Of a stretch of 61,250 nt of DNA, positions 46,669 through 61,250 are shown piece by piece. The notes beneath the pieces were generated by a model, which saw nothing but the letters and a program-made list of their open reading frames with translations, made no database searches and was not told where the DNA came from. Every line of letters starts with the position of its first letter. Position 1 is the stretch's first letter. This stretch comes from Castellaniella caeni NBRC 101664 (lineage in GTDB: Bacteria; Pseudomonadota; Gammaproteobacteria; Burkholderiales; Burkholderiaceae_B). The position numbers and the translations under genes are program-made. The stretch lies in the NCBI RefSeq assembly GCF_001592225.1, contig NZ_BCWN01000023.1:1-61250 (forward strand), given 5' to 3'.

Positions 46669-46764
46669 TGGCGGAAGGCAGCAGGAGTCGAACCTACCTG
46701 GGAACGTCTGACGCCCCCCACTGGGTTTGAAGCCCAGCCGTGCCACCGGACACGCATGCCTTCC
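46669..46764 (-). tRNA. selC: tRNA-Sec (selenocysteine, anticodon TCA)
   Basis: 96 nt including encoded CCA. Acceptor stem of 8 bp (GGAAGGCA/TGCCTTCC), discriminator G, anticodon loop CTTCAAA giving TCA in a CTGGG/CCCAG-type stem, a long extra arm (GGGGGGCG...CGTTCCC region) and T loop GTTCGACTC. These are the diagnostic oddities of selenocysteine tRNA: 8-bp acceptor, long variable arm, UCA. It lies between selB and fdhD, all minus strand, so it is probably processed from the cluster transcript or has its own promoter within the selB 3' end. Confidence 0.96.
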
Positions 46765-46774
46765 TTGTGAGCCA

Positions 46775-48703
46775 TTATGACAGTTTTTTCCAAAATGCCG
46801 CGCTGTCCCCACGGGGGACGTGCCGGTCGCGCAGGCGCCGCGTATAGCCTGCCCGGTCGAAGAATTCGAGTACCTGGATGGCGCGCTTGCGTCCCAGCCC
46901 GCTGGCATCGCGAAACTGGGCCGCCGTGACGCCCTGCGCGCCGCCAAGGGTGTCCAGCAAGGCGGCCAGGCGGGCGATCTGCTGCCGGTCGTAGAACAGG
47001 TCGGGCACCACCTGGTGCAGGTGCCCCGTGCGGGCCATCTTGCGCAGCAGGCCGCGCACCTGGTCTTCGGCCTGCTGGTGCTGTTTGGCGAGGTCGCGCA
47101 CCCAGGGTGGGTCGTAGGCCCCGCTGTGGATCGCCTGCCCCAGGTCTTGCGCGAGGCGCGCTTCTTCGGGGGCCAGGGTGATGGTGTGGCTGGGCAGGTG
47201 CAACCAGGGGCCGTTGCGCGCCAGCCGCCCGTCACTGACGAGTGCGTCGCACAGGGCGGCCCAGAGAGATTCGCTGGCCGTGGGCAGGGCCATGCGCCGC
47301 AGGCGGGCGGCGTCGATGCCGGGTTCTTCGGGCCAGCGTTCGTGGTAGTGGCCCAGCACGTCCAGCACGCTCTGGCCGAGCGCATCCCAGTGGGCGCGCG
47401 CGATGAGGATGCGGCTGGCGTGCGTCGCCCGGGCCTGCACCCAGAGGATGTCCGGCGCGAGGTCGTCCGCCTGCGCCGGGCGCCCGAGCAGGCGCAGCAG
47501 CACGGGTTCGGCCAGCCCCATCGGGGCCTGCCGCACCAGGGCAGCCAGCTGGGCGTCTTGCTGGAAGCGGCTGAGGGACTGCAGCCAGGCCAGGCGCTGC
47601 GCCGACTTGCGCTTGCGTTCGGGGGCGTTGGCGTCCAGCACCGTGCCGCCGCCGATGGTCTGGCTGGCCTGTGCGTTGCGGATGATGAAACGATCCGCCG
47701 CCATGGCGCACACGGGGGTGTCGAACACCAGCTGCACCCAGCCCGTCTGGCCCGGCGCGAGGACGTCGGCCGACAACGGCACGGCGTGCGCCAGCTGGTG
47801 GCTGGCCCCCAGGTGGACGTGCACTGGCGTCCAGGCGCGGATGGGGTGCTCGGCGCTGGCCAGCAGGCGCAGTTGCGTATCGATGTGGGTCGCGGGCACG
47901 AAGCAGCGTTGATCCGCGATCCAGTTGCCGCGCTCGATGCTGCCGAGTTCGACGCCGGTGATGTTCAGCGCGCAGCGCTGGCCCGCGTCGGCGTGCGTGG
48001 CGGCCTGGTTCTGCGCGTGGATCGAGCGCACCCGGACGGGCTTGCCCTGCGGCATCAGGTGCAGCACGCTTGCCGGGTCGTCCAGGCGCACCGTGCCCGC
48101 CTCGACCGTGCCGGTGACGATGGTGCCGTGCCCGGGCAGCGAGAAGGCGCGGTCGATGGCCAGGCGAAACAGGCCCTGGCTGTCGTGACGGGTGAACTGC
48201 CGCGATTGCGTATACAGATGGGCCAGCAGCGCCCGCAGGGCGGGCGAATCGGCCTGTGTGGCATCCACCGTGAAGCGCGCAGCATCGGCCAGGAACGTAT
48301 CCGCCGTCAGGGCCTGGATTTGCTGCAGCGCCGTGGCCTGCCGGGCGTCGTCGGCGCGGTCGCATTTGGTGAGCACGACCGCGCCGTGGCGGATGCCCAG
48401 CAGGGTGAGGATGGCCAGGTGCTCGCGGGTTTGCGGCATGACGCCGTCGTCGGCGGCCACCACCAGCAGGCCGAAGTCGATGCCGCTGGCCCCGGCCGCC
48501 ATGGTGTGTACCAGGCGCTCGTGGCCGGGCACATCGATGAAGCCCAGCGTGGCGCCGTCCGCCGCGCTGAGATAGGCGTAGCCCAGCTCGATCGAGATGC
48601 CGCGTTTTTTTTCTTCGGCCAGGCGGTCAGTGTCCACCCCGGTGAGCGCGCGCACCAGCGTGGTCTTGCCGTGGTCGATGTGGCCAGCCGTACCGATGAT
48701 CAT
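46775..48703 (-). CDS. selB: selenocysteine-specific elongation factor SelB
   Basis: EF-Tu-like GTPase that carries Sec-tRNA to UGA codons by binding the SECIS hairpin. 642 residues (E. coli 614). G1 motif [17 protein letters not shown] at ~4-20, [11 protein letters not shown] (switch), [12 protein letters not shown] (G3), LTKCDRAD (G4). Domains II-III follow, then the C-terminal winged-helix array (from ~430) that grips SECIS RNA and ends in a basic stretch. Its ATG overlaps the selA stop (ATGA at 48700-48703), so the two are coupled. Confidence 0.96.
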
Positions 48704-50133
48704 GCGTCGGGGGCCTCCAGTTGGGCTGTGAAGGCGGCTTCGTCGGCGGGTTCGAGACAGCGCAGGTCGAGCCACAGAGTATCTTGGGCAATGCGCCCGA
48801 TGACGGGGCGTGGCAGCTGGCGCAGGCGCTGTTCGAGCGCGTGCAGGGCCTTGCCGCCGCGGCCCGCACCGCTGCTGCGAATGCCCAGGCCATAGCTGGG
48901 CAGCTGATCGACGGGCAGGGCGCCGCTGCCGATCTGGCTGAACAGGGGCTCGGCGCTGACTGTGTACTGTCGCGTGACGGCCTGTTGCACGTGCGCCTGC
49001 AGCCGCAGGGCCTGTTGCCGCATTTCGCCCATGGGGCGGGTGAGCAGGCGCAGGGTGGTGAGCCGCTGGGCCAGGTGTTCGGGGTCGCGGTACAGCTGCA
49101 AGACGGGTTCGAGCGCGGCGAGCGTGAGCTTGCCCACCCGCAGCGCGCGCTTGAGCGGGTTTTTCTTGATGCGTTGGATGAGTTCGCGGCGGCCGACCAA
49201 CAGCCCCGCCTGCGGGCCACCCAGCAGCTTGTCGCCGCTGAATGTGACGATGTCGGCCCCGGATTCGATGGTCTGGCGCACGGTGGTTTCTTTGGGCAGC
49301 CCCCACTGGGTGAGGTCGAGCAGGGTGCCGCTGCCCAGATCGACGGCGCTGGGGATGCCCGCCGCCCGGGCGATGCGCGCCATGGCATCGACCTCGACGC
49401 TGTGCGTGAAGCCCGAGATGGCGTAATTGCTGCAATGCACTTTCATCAGCAGGCCGGTACGCGCGGTGATGGCTTGTTCGTAGTCGGCGGTATGGGTGCG
49501 GTTGGTGGTGCCGACTTCGCGCAGCTTGGCGCCGGCGCGCTGCATGATGTCGGGTACGCGAAAGGCCCCGCCGATTTCGACCAGTTCGCCGCGCGAGACG
49601 ATGACTTCGCGCCGGTTGGCGAGCGCATTGAGCATGAGGAAGACGGCGGCGGCATTGTTGTTGACGACGGTGGCGGCCTCGGCGCCGGTCAGTTCGCAGA
49701 TGAGTTCGCCGATGAGGTCGTCGCGGTCGCCCCGGCGCCCGGTTGCCAGGTTGAATTCGAGGTTGGCGGGGGCCTGCATGGCCTGCACGACCGCCTGGAT
49801 GGCGGCCTCGGGCAGCAGGGCGCGGCCCAGATTGGTGTGCAGCACCGTGCCCGTGAGGTTGAAGACGGCCTGCAGCCGGGGCCGTGCGGCGACGGCCAGG
49901 CGATCGCGTGCCTGAGCAAGCAGGGTGGCCACCGCCAGCGCCTCGGGGCTGGCCTGCCCGCGAAGCACCTGTTCACGGGCCTCGGACAGCAGGGCGCGCA
50001 GGGCCGACAGCAGCTGGCTGCGCCCGTGCCGGGCAATGAGCGCGGCGCTGCCCGCGTCGCCCAGCAGCCGATCGACGCTGGGGATGTCCGACAGGCGGGC
50101 AGCGGCCCGCGCGGGCTGGGGAATGGCTGCCAT
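48700..50133 (-). CDS. selA: L-seryl-tRNA(Sec) selenium transferase
   Basis: PLP enzyme converting Ser-tRNA-Sec to Sec-tRNA-Sec using selenophosphate. 477 residues. The N-terminal tRNA-binding helices start [20 protein letters not shown]. Motifs include [55 protein letters not shown] and the PLP lysine in [13 protein letters not shown] (~300). It is flanked by fdhE (10 bp) and selB (4-bp overlap). No selD (selenophosphate synthetase) occurs in the window, so it must be elsewhere for the system to work. Confidence 0.96.
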
Positions 50134-50143
50134 GATGCCGCGC

Positions 50144-51085
50144 CTATTCGGAGGTGGCGGCGGCGCCCTGCCACAGCAGCGGGTTGCCGCTGGCGCGCGA
50201 ATAGCCGGCTTCGCCCATCAGGACGTCGAGCGGAATGCTGGCCAGGTCGTCGGCCACGGGTTCGACCTCGAGGTCTTTTTCCTGGTTGAAGAGCTTGCGG
50301 TAGCTGTGGCATTCGTCGCAGGATTCGGCCTGGATGGCTTCGGGGCCGCCTTCGATGCTGTGGTACAGGATGGATTTGTTGTTCTCGCAGTGCGTACAGG
50401 TGACGCGCACGACGTGCCATTCGGTGGCGCACAGCGAACAGCAGAGAAAGCGCAGGCCGTCGCGCGTGCCGCCCACCCGCTGGATGCTGGCCACGGGCAG
50501 GCTGCCGCAGACCGGGCAGGTGCCAAACGGCGTGCCATGGGGCACCTGGACGGGGTCGAGGCGACTGGCCTGGGCCGTCCAGTACACCTGCAGGGCAGCC
50601 ATTATGAAAGGTGCCTGCTGGCAGTCGATGTCGGCGTCGCGTTCGGCCAGAATGGCGTCCGCCAGCGATTCAAGGTCGTCGGGCGACTGGGTGCGCAGCG
50701 TCTGCAGCTGAGTCATGACGCTGCGCGTCTGCGGAGTGAGCGTGTCGAGCCCCGCCAGCTGATCGAGCAAGGCCTGCAGCACGTGCCGCCAGCTGGGGTC
50801 GCGTTCTCGGCCGATGGCCTGCAAGGGCGGCATGCCGTGTGCCTGGGCCAGTTGCAGGGCTTCGGGGTCGAGAGTGGGGGCCGGGCAGTCGGGCAGCAGC
50901 CGGTGCTGGATGTCGGCGATTTGCGCCATCAGCTGCAGGTAGGCCGCGGCTGCGTGGCCCGCCGAGAGCTGCCGCAGCCGGGCGGCCCGTTCGGCGAAAA
51001 CGGTGCCGCCTTCGGGCAGGCGCAGACGGGGGATTTTCGTGTGGTCCAGCGATTCGATTTCGCCGCGTTCGAGGATACGTTGCAA
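50144..51085 (-). CDS. fdhE: formate dehydrogenase accessory protein FdhE
   Basis: Needed for maturation/activation of respiratory formate dehydrogenase. 313 residues (E. coli 309). Rubredoxin-like zinc/iron motifs: [58 protein letters not shown]-like [19 protein letters not shown] closes the family pattern. The start is TTG at 51085: AGGAG lies 6 bases upstream, while the upstream in-frame ATG (51139) has no ribosome site and adds 18 unrelated residues. selA follows after 10 bp. Confidence 0.93.
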
Positions 51086-51163
51086 CGTGTTCTCCTGAAA
51101 GACTGACTGCCTGCGTACCGCCAGGCAGTCATGGATCATCGGCCCTGGGAAAGAGCGTAGCGC

Positions 51164-51799
51164 CTATTTGCGGGCGGCCTTCTGCGTCTGGCGAAACCAG
51201 GCGTGGTGGTGTTTCCAGGCCCAGCCCGCCGTGACGCTGCCGCGCGTCATGGCGCGCATCGAGCCCTTGACCCAGATGCCCGCGTAGATGTGGATGATGA
51301 TGGTGCAGATCATGACGAAGGCGAAAATGGCATGCAGCGCCGACGCCAGCTGCACCACGCCCATGCTGAAGTACAGGCTGAAGTATTCGCGCCACATCAC
51401 CAGGCCCGTGAGGATGAGCCCGATCATGCAGATGACGGATACCCAGTACACCAGCTTCTGCCCGGCGTTGTAGCGCCCGACTTCGGGCACCCTTTCTTCG
51501 TGCTTGTTGATGACGTCGTTGACATGACACAGCCATTGGCGGTCGCTTTTGCCGATGCCGTTGTGACGGATCATGCGCAAGGCCAGGATCAAGAACAGCA
51601 GGAACATCAGCACGCCCACGAATGGGTGCAGGATGCGCGTCCAGGTGCCGCCTCCGAAGAGGTTGGTGAGCCAGAACAGGGCCGGATGGAACAGGGCGAG
51701 CCCCGAGAGCGCCAGCAGGATGAAGAGGATGGCCACCGCCCAGTGGTTGCTGCGCTGGCTGGCGGTGTACCGATCGATAAGCCTGGGGGTATCGCTCAT
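51164..51799 (-). CDS. fdnI: formate dehydrogenase cytochrome b556 (gamma) subunit
   Basis: Membrane diheme subunit passing electrons from FdnH to menaquinone/ubiquinone. 211 residues, four transmembrane helices ([22 protein letters not shown]-adjacent [58 protein letters not shown]). Candidate heme-ligand His occur in SQRSNHW, LHAIF and IIIHIYAG. Its start overlaps the fdnH stop by 4 bp. fdhE follows after ~78 bp. Confidence 0.95.
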
Positions 51800-52701
51800 G
51801 ATGACGTCTCCTCGTCTCTGGCCTTTTGTTCGTCCTCTTCCGTGACTTCGTTGGGGCCCACCCGCATGTAGTGGAAGAACCCGGCAAAGGCGGTCAGTGC
51901 CATCACGGCCAGCCCGATGGGCTTGGCCACCCCCTTCCAGAGGGACACGGTGGGGCTGATGACAGGGTCTTTGGGCAGATTGCTGTAGATTTCCGGCTTG
52001 TCGGCGTGATGCAGCACGTACATGACGTGGGTGCCGCCCACCCCCGCAGGGTCGTACAGGCCGGCCTGGTCGAAGCCGCGCGACTTCAGGTCAACGATGC
52101 GCTCTTCGGCCTTCTGGATCATTTCTTCCTTGGTGCCGAAGGTGATGGCACCGGTAGGACAGGTCTTGACGCAGGCGGGCTCTTGGCCCACCGCGACACG
52201 ATCCGAGCACAGCGTGCACTTGTAGGCCTTGTTGTCCTTTTTGGAGATGCGCGGCACGTCGAAGGGGCAGGCCGTGACGCAGTAGCCGCAGCCGATGCAG
52301 TTTTCCTGGTGGAAATCCACAATGCCGTTGTTGTACTGGATGATCGCGCCCGGTGAAGGGCAGGCCTTCAGGCAGGCGGGGTCTTCGCAGTGCATGCAGC
52401 CATCTTTGCGGATGAGCCATTCGAGCGTGTTGCTCTCGGGCTCTTCGTACTCGGCGTAGCGCATGACCGTCCAGGAGTTTTCGGTGAGATCCATGGGGTT
52501 GTCGTATACCCCATGGTTGATGCCCACGTCGTCTCGCAGGTCGTTCCATTCCATGCAGGCCACCTGACAGGCCTTGCAGCCGATGCAGATGGTGGTGTCG
52601 ATGAGCTTGGCCACCCCACCTCCAACCACGATGTCGCGTTGGCTGGGTGGAGGCGTCGTGGTGGCGGAGCTCCGTTTGATGTCCAGGGATTGCAATGCCA
52701 T
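51796..52701 (-). CDS. fdnH: formate dehydrogenase iron-sulfur (beta) subunit
   Basis: Electron-transfer subunit with four [4Fe-4S] clusters. 301 residues. Cys motifs in order: [11 protein letters not shown] (~39-49), [13 protein letters not shown] (~101-113), [12 protein letters not shown] (~134-145) and CTLCSDRVA with CVKTCP (~160-185). A C-terminal single transmembrane helix ([19 protein letters not shown]) anchors it in the membrane, as in E. coli FdnH. It starts 9 bp after fdnG and overlaps fdnI by 4 bp. Confidence 0.96.
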
Positions 52702-58198: not shown

Positions 58199-60793
58199 TC
58201 AAAGAAAATCGCGCCGCATCTGGTAGATGAGCTCGAGCGCCTCGCGCGGGCTGAGCGTGTCGGGGTCGAGCGCCTGCAGCGCGCTGCGCAAGGGGGCGTC
58301 GGCGTCGCCCTCTTCTTCTTCTACCTGCTGCACGAAGAGCGACAGCTGCGAATCGGCCCGGTTGCGGGCTTCGAGTTCGGCCAGTTCTTTGCGCGCGTGG
58401 CGAATCACCACCTGGGGGATGCCCGCGCGCTGCGCCACGTGCAGGCCGTAGCTCTGGCTGGCCGGGCCGGGGCGCACCTCGTGCAGAAAGACGACCCCGT
58501 CCGGGGAATCGGCGGCGGCCAGATGTACGTTGATCACCCCGTGGGTTTTTTCGGGCAGGCGGGTGAGTTCGAAGTAGTGGGTGGCAAAGAGCGTGAGCGC
58601 GCGGTTGTAGGTCAGCAGCCGGTGCGCGATGGCCCAGGCAAGCGACAGCCCGTCGTAGGTGGACGTGCCGCGGCCGATCTCGTCCATCAGCACCAGGCTG
58701 TGCGGCGTGGCGGCGGCCAGGATGACCCCTGCCTCCATCATTTCCATCATGAAGGTGGAGCGTCCGCCCGCCAAGTCGTCAGCGGCACCGATGCGCGTGA
58801 AGATGCGGTCGAGCGGGCCGACGTGCGCCTGCGCGGCGGGCACGTAGCTGCCCACGCGCGCCAGCAGTGCGATCAGGGCCACCTGGCGCATGTAGGTGGA
58901 TTTACCACCCATGTTGGGGCCGGTGATGAGCAGCATGCGGCGTTCTTCGTGCATGCGGCAGTCGTTGGGAGTGAAGGCCTCGATGCTGTGTTCGACCACC
59001 GGGTGGCGGCCTGCCTCGATGTCCAGGCGGATGTCTTCGCACAGTTCGGGCGCCACCCAGCCGTGGCTGCGGGCGTGAAACGCCAATGCCGCCAGCGCGT
59101 CGAGGCAGGCCAGAGCGGCGGCGCTGCGCGCCAGGGCGCCGGCGTGGCTGGCGGCCTGTTCCAGCATCTGTTCGAACAGCAGTTTTTCGCGTGCCAGACC
59201 ACGTTCGCGGGCCGAAAGCACCTTGTCTTCCCAGGCTTTCAGTTCGGGCGTGATATAGCGTTCGGCGTTTTTCAGCGTCTGGCGACGGCGGTAATCATCG
59301 GGCACCTTGTCGGCCTGGCCGCGTGTTACTTCGATGAAAAACCCGTGCACCCGGTTGTATTCCACCCGCAGGTTGCCGATGCCTGTGCGTTCACGCTCGC
59401 GCGTCTCGATTTCCATCAGGAAGGCACCGTTGTCGCCCGCCAGCTGGCGCAGGGAATCCAGCTCGGCGTCGTAGCCCTCGGCGATGACGCCGCCGTCGCG
59501 CACCATCAGGGCGGGTTCGGGGGCGATGGCCTGCGTCAGCAGGGCCGCCAGCGCCGGATCGACGGGAATGGCGTCGAGGCAGTCGGCCAGCAGCGCGTCG
59601 GCCTGGAAGTGCGCGCGGGCTGTTTCGGCGAGCGGCGCCAGCGTGCCCAGCGCGTCGCGCAGACTGGCCAGCTCGCGCGGGCGGATGCTGCCCAGCGACA
59701 GGCGCGTGGCCATGCGTTCGAGGTCGGGCAGGGCATGCAGGCTGCTGCGCAATGCGTGCAGCGCCGAGTCGGCGTTGGCCGCCCGCAGCAGCTGCGTGAT
59801 GGCGTCTTGCCGCGCCTGCGCCTGCGGGTTGGCGCGCAGCGGCGCCTGCAGCCAGCGGCGCAGCTGGCGGCTGCCCATGGGCGTGCGGGCGTGATCCAGT
59901 GTGCTGAACAGGGTGGGCCCCTCGCCGCCGTTGAGCGTGTCGGTGATTTCCAGATTGCGTCGTGTGGCTGGGTCGAGCACCACGTAATCGCCGCTGGCAT
60001 CCACCGACAGACTGTGCACGTGCTTGAGCGCCTGCGCCTGCGTGTTGCCCACGTAGCGCAGCAGCGCGCCCGCCGCCTGCACGGCCAGCGGCAGATGGTC
60101 GAGCCCGAAAGCGCCGATGTCGCCCACGCCAAAGTGGCGCAGCAGCGTGTCGCGCGCGCCATCGGCTTCGAAGTGCCACTCGGGCACGCGGCTCAGGGCC
60201 GTGTCCAGCCCGCTGGCTTCGAGTGCGTCGGTGTCGGCCTGCTCGGCGCACACCAGCTCCGCCGGGGCGATGCGCCCCAGTTCGGTGTCCAGCAGCTCGG
60301 GCGTGCATTCGCAGGTTTTGAACGTGCCATTGGCCAGGTTCATCCAGGCCAGGCCCATGCTGTCTTTGTTGCGGTTGCGGCCCGCCACCCAGGCCGCGAT
60401 GATGCGGTCTTCGCGGGCGGGCAGCAGCGCTTCGTCGGTGAGCGTGCCGGGGGTGACCACGCGCACGATCTTGCGCTCGACCGGCCCCTTGCTGGCAGCG
60501 GGGTCGCCCACCTGCTCGCAGATGGCGATCGATTCGCCCAGCGCCACCAGCCGCGCCAGATAGCCTTCCATGGCGTGATGCGGCACCCCCGCCATCGGGA
60601 TCGGCGCCCCGTTGGACGTGCCCCGCTTGGTGAGCGTGAGGTTCAGCAACTTGGCCCCACGCTCGGCATCGTCATAGAACATCTCGTAGAAGTCGCCCAT
60701 GCGATAGAACAGCAGATGCGAGCCCGCCTGGGCCTTGAGCTGTAAATACTGCTTCATCATGGGGGTGTGGCCGGAGAGATCGGGGGAGGTCAT
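58199..60793 (-). CDS. mutS: DNA mismatch repair protein MutS
   Basis: Recognises mismatches and small loops and recruits MutL. 864 residues (E. coli 853). The mismatch-binding Phe-x-Glu motif is in [13 protein letters not shown] (~35-37). The ATPase domain has Walker [16 protein letters not shown] (~624), Walker [17 protein letters not shown] and the dimer helix region [13 protein letters not shown]. The chosen start is ATG 60793 ([20 protein letters not shown]); it lacks an obvious ribosome site, and the frame stays open to 60943. A CRISPR leader lies just upstream on the other strand. Confidence 0.96.
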
Positions 60794-60879: not shown

Positions 60880-61004
60880 TTCTTTGTGGGATGCAAGAAG
60901 GTTGGTGTAAGGTTGCTGTTTCGTGAGTGCCGATCTTTAACAAAAAAGCCGGTAGAATTTTTCATGCCATTTTTCTTCATTTGAATCAATGGCTTGCTTT
61001 TAGA
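60880..61004 (+). promoter_or_regulatory. CRISPR leader (type I-E-like)
   Basis: An AT-rich strip between mutS and the first repeat. It has GATCTTTAACAAAAAAG (60932-60948), GGTAGAATTTTT with -10-like TAGAAT (60953-60958), and ends TTTTAGA directly against the first repeat, as the E. coli I-E leader ends in TTTAGA. It sets the array's direction: rightward. Confidence 0.75.
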
Positions 61005-61250
61005 GTGTTCCCCACGCACGTGGGGATGAACCGCTGTTTGACAGTGCCATGCAGAATTGCTGCAGTGTTCCCCACGCACGTGGGGAACACGCTCATCAGC
61101 AGCCTGCGCGACATACTCTGATCGGTTCATCCCCACGCACGTGGGGAACACCCCTTGCAGTGTTTGCATGAACATGCCGACGCCGGTTCATCCCCACGCA
61201 CGTGGGGATGAACCGTGACTATTACGCACATCCGTTAGTGTGTGGCTGTG
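61005..61250 (+). CRISPR. type I-E-like CRISPR array with arm-flipped repeats, running off the window
   Basis: Four repeats and the first bases of a fifth (GTG, 61248). All share the core CCCCACGCACGTGGGG. Repeat 1 (61005-61033): left arm GTGTT, right arm ATGAACCG, the standard I-E type. Repeat 2 (61065-61090): GTGTT and AACAC. Repeat 3 (61123-61151): CGGTTCAT and AACAC. Repeat 4 (61184-61215): CGGTTCAT and ATGAACCG. Spacers: 61034-61064 (31 nt), 61091-61122, 61152-61183 and 61216-61247 (32 nt each). Spacers 2 and 3 are bordered by AACAC on the left and CGGTTCAT on the right, i.e. reverse-oriented units. No cas genes are seen; they may lie to the right. Confidence 0.92.

Follow-up and report, generated by a model that had tools for sequence, protein, structure and literature searches.

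Do blocks of spacers turn around inside a CRISPR array, or does a draft assembly only make it appear so? The question is raised by contig C23 of Castellaniella caeni NBRC 101664, one contig of a 60-contig draft genome (3.28 Mb), which in its entirety constitutes the window analysed here (61,250 nucleotides) and whose right end, 61250, falls within an array. Our best explanation is that this array is of a type I-E-like CRISPR, split over two contig ends and built of two repeat versions with mirror-image cores; taken as a whole, we consider it to have about an even chance of being correct.

Four repeats and three complete spacers can be read directly from the window, with repeat start-to-start spacings of 60, 61, and 61. 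All four repeats carry the core CCCCACGCACGTGGGG on the plus strand. Spacers 1 and 4 have ATGAACCG on the left and GTGTT on the right (the contig end cuts the border of spacer 4 at GTG), and spacers 2 and 3 are bordered by AACAC on the left and CGGTTCAT on the right. Direct reading of the repeats thus bears out the switching of arms around spacers 1 to 4 that an earlier note on this DNA had described. An exact pattern search found the core 31 times in the same genome, 4 times in the window and 27 times at the right end of contig C26, compared with no match for a reversed control pattern, and the core is therefore not a chance occurrence. The features of the window array are given below, with cores named by their middle two bases.

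About 60930..61004, plus strand: A+T-rich DNA separating mutS from the first repeat, as read from the sequence; a probable leader, judged by its position
61005..61033, plus strand: repeat 1, both arms forward, core CA; identical in sequence to the uniform repeat of genome G436
61034..61064, plus strand: spacer 1 (31 nt), forward unit; probably of the CA class if two classes are distinguished
61065..61090, plus strand: repeat 2, left arm forward and right arm reverse; switch junction GTGTT-core-AACAC
61091..61122, minus strand: spacer 2 (32 nt), reverse unit; probably of the TG class
61123..61151, minus strand: repeat 3, both arms reverse; core CA on the plus strand, equal to a forward repeat with core TG
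61152..61183, minus strand: spacer 3 (32 nt), reverse unit; probably of the TG class
61184..61215, plus strand: repeat 4, left arm reverse and right arm forward; switch junction CGGTTCAT-core-ATGAACCG
61216..61250, plus strand: spacer 4 (32 nt) and the first 3 bases of the next repeat; C23 terminates here

The gene mutS (58199-60790, minus strand) directly adjoins the leader side of the array. RNA folding gave a hairpin of 11 pairs and -19.9 kcal/mol for repeat 2 and of 14 pairs and -26.9 kcal/mol for repeat 4, so that both kinds of switch junction can be set against the -12.9 kcal/mol of the normal repeat.

The second piece of the array occupies C26:48157-49950 and adds 30 repeats and 29 complete units, making the array larger than was described earlier. 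In the first of these repeats one arm, CGGGTAAT, is degenerate, as distal repeats of arrays usually are. Written in order, the units comprise 3 reverse, 12 forward, 6 reverse, 3 forward, 2 reverse, and 3 forward. On the plus strand, 22 repeats have the core CA and the last five TG; between these two parts, AA, ACAT, and ATGC occur in one repeat each, in that order (at 49504, 49566, and 49628). The constancy of the core claimed in the earlier note consequently holds locally, within the window (4 of 4 repeats), and fails in C26. The stem of the ACAT core is retained through a paired double change. We considered the three singleton cores as steps in a drift from TG to CA and rejected this, as in canonical form GAAC and ACAT lie one to two changes from CA and ATGC lies one change from TG. 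Because of these distances, the singletons are side variants and not a chain between TG and CA.

Across both pieces, the period is 60-62 and the spacers measure 31-33 nt; no 20-mer outside the cores is present twice on the strand checked. Typing was possible for 32 of the 34 repeats, the exceptions being the two outermost of the C26 piece (the first, which is degenerate, and the last, which the contig end cuts): 16 have both arms forward, 9 have both arms reverse, and 7 have arms that switch across the core. Six of the seven switch junctions lie in an exact 18-bp core, and the seventh (core ATGC, C26:49628) is one base off the TG core. All 32 complete units have matched half-repeats, in one orientation or the other, and none mixes a forward with a reverse half-repeat, which agrees with the earlier description of a spacer and its two half-repeats flipping as a unit. 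Reversed spacer acquisition is ruled out because the half-repeats turn along with the spacers in every reverse unit, and its exclusion in the earlier note was correct.

The repeat of this array exists in two versions. With the C23 leader placed at the left and C26 reverse-complemented, the version near the leader reads GTGTTCCCCACG-CA-CGTGGGGATGAACCG, and the version near the far end is the same with TG in the middle. The 18-bp CA core, TCCCCACG-CA-CGTGGGGA, and the TG core are exact reverse complements (TCCCCACGCACGTGGGGA and TCCCCACGTGCGTGGGGA). Therefore, any CA repeat forms a perfect 18-bp inverted repeat with any TG repeat, and a block lying between two such repeats can turn by exchange within identical sequence. 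It had been objected that inverting spacers 2 and 3 as one block would also reverse the core of repeat 3; this objection falls because a turned TG block shows CA, and TG cores are present in the C26 part. Spacers 2 and 3 of the window would then be TG-class units in a turned block. Among the sampled genomes of the same class, we also observed two, L038 and L051, whose I-E-like repeats have mutually reverse-complementary cores, CCCCGCGCATGCGGGG and CCCCGCATGCGCGGGG; each is uniform in its typed stretch.

Several properties place the array near type I-E. Its 29-nt repeat with a central hairpin is of the I-E kind, an identical repeat lies beside type I-E cas genes in G436, and unique spacers of about 32 nt recur with a regular period of about 61. 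The single repeat orientation of a type I-E array is absent here, 7 of the 32 typed repeats having switched arms. In G436, matches to cas1e, casE (cas6e), cse4, and cse1 exceed their cut-offs beside the array, and the same four families gave no match in the C. caeni genome, parts of which are masked in that the ends of contigs C45-C60 read N. Five matches to cas3_core were obtained in this genome, all below the cut-off, and are taken to be other helicases. Since the 16 contigs with masked ends have lengths of 516-2574 bases, cas fragments could be hidden in them, though an entire unbroken operon hardly could. The array may be an orphan, and its polarity may no longer be selected. In searches of the C26 array against phages (9 records at E up to 1) and of the window array against plasmids, no convincing protospacer was found; two phage stretches from this search were inspected and neither was used.

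Repeats of this layout are uniform in orientation almost everywhere else that we looked. I-E-like repeats were found in 25 of 369 sampled genomes of the class, C. caeni included. The control set comprised 31 loci, namely one stretch from each of the 24 other genomes, 6 plasmid stretches, and locus L018, all of them stretches and not always whole arrays, with duplicate loci and those of C. caeni dropped. The plasmid stretches were 6 of the best 30 of 57 matched records, 2 of the 6 had no typed repeat, and they serve as orientation controls only. In total, 304 repeats were reverse/reverse and 281 forward/forward (585 with same-direction arms), and one, in L018, was a switch. The other control arrays are uniform, and the cores listed for them contain no complementary pair. 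G436 is the most direct comparison, as it shares the exact CA repeat of the window and the 61-nt period; there, 67 of 67 typed repeats have one orientation and one core, whereas here 7 of 32 switch, two core versions are present, and four cas families are unmatched. Hence this repeat, its 8-bp hairpin arms included, does not flip in G436, where only a single core version occurs. When matches were counted over whole genomes, 2 of the 24 others showed one on the opposite strand: G390 has an isolated repeat with a different core, away from the main array, and in G369 the match lies on another contig than the array; no switch junction occurs among the typed repeats of the corresponding array contigs (84 + 1 and 31, respectively). 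A comparison of arms with close relatives is of no help, as among 10 genomes of the genus and 268 of the family (C. caeni included in both) the exact pattern matches in C. caeni alone.

Wider scans gave a similar result. The genome_contigs scan (84,980 species genomes, from which C. caeni itself may be excluded) gave a single record with the junction CGGTTNATCCCC-N8-GGGGATNAACCG. This record, L018, is a contig of the metagenome-assembled genome YF3.bin57 and contains a two-repeat array at L018:276-360 with a switch junction. It shares the CGGTTCAT-core-ATGAACCG junction with our array, but it differs in having two repeats only and a core, CCCCACGCGCGTGGGG, that is a perfect palindrome. It follows that both known cases of switching have an 18-bp self-complementary core. 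Directly beside the L018 array is a broken reading frame that we take to be transposase-like, and L018 may be a chimera because of this frame, its palindromic core, and its having two repeats only. In viral_contigs, neither CGGTTNATCCCC-N8-GGGGATNAACCG nor GTGTT-core-AACAC was found, and the normal repeat occurs in 41 stretches, each on a single strand among the positions listed. Among complete Escherichia coli genomes, the normal consensus repeat occurs at no fewer than 86,022 places in 4518 of 5426 genomes, and the flipped consensus had no match at E 1e-5, a search by which flipped variant repeats could be missed.

The order of orientations bears on whether units turn singly or in blocks. 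The 29 units of C26 form 6 runs, a number so low that it is reached in 0.04% of shuffles (p = 0.0004). If C23 and C26 are assumed to be neighbours, which their ends would permit (GTG closes C23, and TCCCC, one base on, opens reversed C26), the joined order comprises 33 units (20 reverse and 13 forward) in 9 runs, compared with 16.8 expected (p = 0.003). The TG side alone has 3 runs in 21 units (p = 0.00006), and the CA side alone has 5 runs in 9 units (p = 0.50) and is not clustered. Producing the joined order by flipping single units requires 20 events, or 13 if reverse is taken as the ground state. A search in which every inversion had to span one CA and one TG core, with C23 and C26 again taken as neighbours, derived it from a uniform array by at least 5 block inversions. 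The sites bounding each inverted block are the 18-bp inverted cores of CA and TG repeats, one junction having a single mismatch. Single units flipping between constant cores is thus not the best reading.

It is possible to envisage how such an array might have arisen. The founding event would be one inversion of the 2-nt hairpin loop, from TG to CA, in the repeat serving as the copy source. CA and TG repeats would thereafter be mutually inverted over 18 bp within hairpin-prone DNA, and an exchange between them would turn the intervening block of units while leaving the core at the exchange point unchanged. Turned TG repeats would show CA and turned CA repeats would show TG, and the core would look constant while arms and spacers flip because a turned TG block displays CA cores. 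Which block moved in a given exchange, and to which class a given unit belongs, we infer. As 18 bp is shorter than the length usual for RecA, the exchange would most likely proceed by RecA-independent template switching or by short-homology recombination during replication. Template switching at hairpins is described as inverting the loop or centre (PMC8604942, PMC8794818), and would yield the change from TG to CA in one step. We tentatively suggest, at somewhat less than an even chance, that the array became self-inverting through the founder loop inversion, that spacer blocks have since turned over many times, with the process perhaps still under way in the population, and that part of the memory consequently lies on the strand giving unusable or antisense guides. 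Reverse units, if transcribed from the leader, would carry AACAC instead of the ATGAACCG handle, with a presumed effect on the guides. The altered crRNAs proposed in the earlier note presuppose a working system, and the four type I-E cas families are unmatched in this genome.

Whether the inversions are real events in the DNA of the cell we regard as evenly balanced. The presence of both core classes and three singletons in one array, with the CA and TG cores on opposite sides, counts in favor. On the opposite side, both contigs break within the array and the apparent order of the DNA rests on a draft assembly. For 5 or more inversions to have occurred while the 34 repeats acquired hardly any other point changes, the inversion rate would have to be high, and the order on the CA side is no more clustered than random. 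In addition, the hairpin has 8-bp arms and a 2-nt centre, falling below the arms of > 9 bp with which alone such inversions are reported in PMC8604942. Small assembler words could be confused in such an array, and the one other switch locus is the possible chimera L018.

The strongest alternative is an assembly artefact, which we consider a serious contender at somewhat below an even chance, and mis-joining was rightly named as a serious alternative in the earlier note. The true array would be uniformly forward, CA and then TG, and the assembler or scaffolder would have crossed from CA forward to TG backward via the shared 18-mer. Both array pieces stop at contig ends, and C26 does so exactly at the final base of the shared 18-mer. 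Such a stop is expected where the next base is ambiguous, be it in the molecules or in the graph alone. The CA side, which adjoins the break, is random-like in order. We took the ends of all 60 contigs, of which 44 (88 ends) were usable, C45-C60 reading N. At several dispersed repeats, contig ends share just about 20-25 bases, so the word size was probably smaller than the 29-nt repeat; other ends share 30-65 bases, and ends in tandem repeats share 81-87. Together, the ends suggest small assembler words and reads near 100 bases, and reads of that length, deduced from the tandem-tract ends, could span a repeat and a spacer. A modelled CA/TG array has contexts of up to 18 bases leading into both arms, but none that is ambiguous at 19, 20, or 21 bases, and an ordinary word of 20 or more therefore does not by itself cross. 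In a modelled uniform CA array, the arms are ambiguous at 8 bases and at none of the lengths tried from 9 upward. The ATGC junction has only 10 exact bases in common with the TG core, and a random walk through a tangle would yield numerous short runs instead of the 12 and 6 consecutive units seen. Among the same contig ends, those of C8/C19 and C11/C20 fall within tandem-repeat tracts of 82-90 bases with six-base and four-base units, and a few others are runs of G or C.

The remaining alternatives fare considerably worse. The earlier note had proposed that each spacer unit flips alone by exchange at the 7-8 bp arms flanking the core. With breakpoints in the 8-bp arms no core would change; moreover, the units are all coherent, and the CA side taken alone is random-like. 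We nevertheless consider the proposal very unlikely, since the flips on C26 are clustered, 20 (or 13) events would be needed compared with at least 5 block inversions, and G436 remains uniform with the same 8-bp arms and one core version. Alternatively, two separate arrays, CA and TG, in opposite orientation may have been fused or recombined together. The separation of the two classes, with one leader-like end in C23 and one degenerate far end in C26, could be accounted for in this way, but a single leader-like end is seen and one array of two classes is the more economical account, and we regard the fusion as highly improbable. Least probable of all is a dedicated site-specific recombinase that inverts units in a programmed, phase-variable array: short inverted sites do bound each block, as such systems need, but the same repeat is uniform in G436, and relatives might be expected to share a programmed system, yet the 267 other family genomes have no exact core-plus-arm match.

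Returning to inversion of blocks in the DNA of the cell, the closest described event is flipped spacer acquisition in Pectobacterium atrosepticum, estimated at < 0.5% of spacers in PMC5059440. A spacer in reverse orientation is common to both cases, but in the account given there the spacer alone is reversed at integration, whereas here the half-repeats turn too, and in blocks. The inversion of a short centre between inverted arms by template switching is likewise similar, but in PMC8604942 and PMC8794818 it is described for hairpins in yeast genes and rRNA genes and not for blocks of CRISPR units; PMC8604942, in the one of two occurrences considered here, mentions CRISPR only among the functions of inverted repeats, and PMC8794818 not at all. 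By its title, DeBoy 2006 (cited in PMC4869251) links large-scale chromosome inversions with CRISPR sequences in Thermotogales, thus joining inversions and CRISPR in one genome comparison, but at the scale of chromosomes and not of blocks within one array. Among the matches listed in a search of the literature on CRISPR arrays, judged by title or the start of the abstract, none described block inversions inside a natural array, and further papers checked for corresponding phrases, PMC4869251 among them, contain no account of such inversions.

If the inversions are real, they would constitute a route to the loss of polarity in a CRISPR array, and would suggest a reason for repeat hairpins to remain asymmetric, as a repeat set self-complementary over about 18 bp would be unstable. 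The order of spacers serves as a time record of infections, and block inversions would falsify such a record. Should the pattern instead be artefactual, it is a caution that mis-joining can occur in draft genomes where an array has two complementary repeat versions, and inspecting repeats for arms switching across the core would provide a simple test for it.

Elsewhere in the window, selenocysteine genes are clustered at 46669-52701. This region contains tRNA-Sec and SelA, together with a frame that we take to be SelB-like and, following SelA, frames that presumably are formate dehydrogenase-like.
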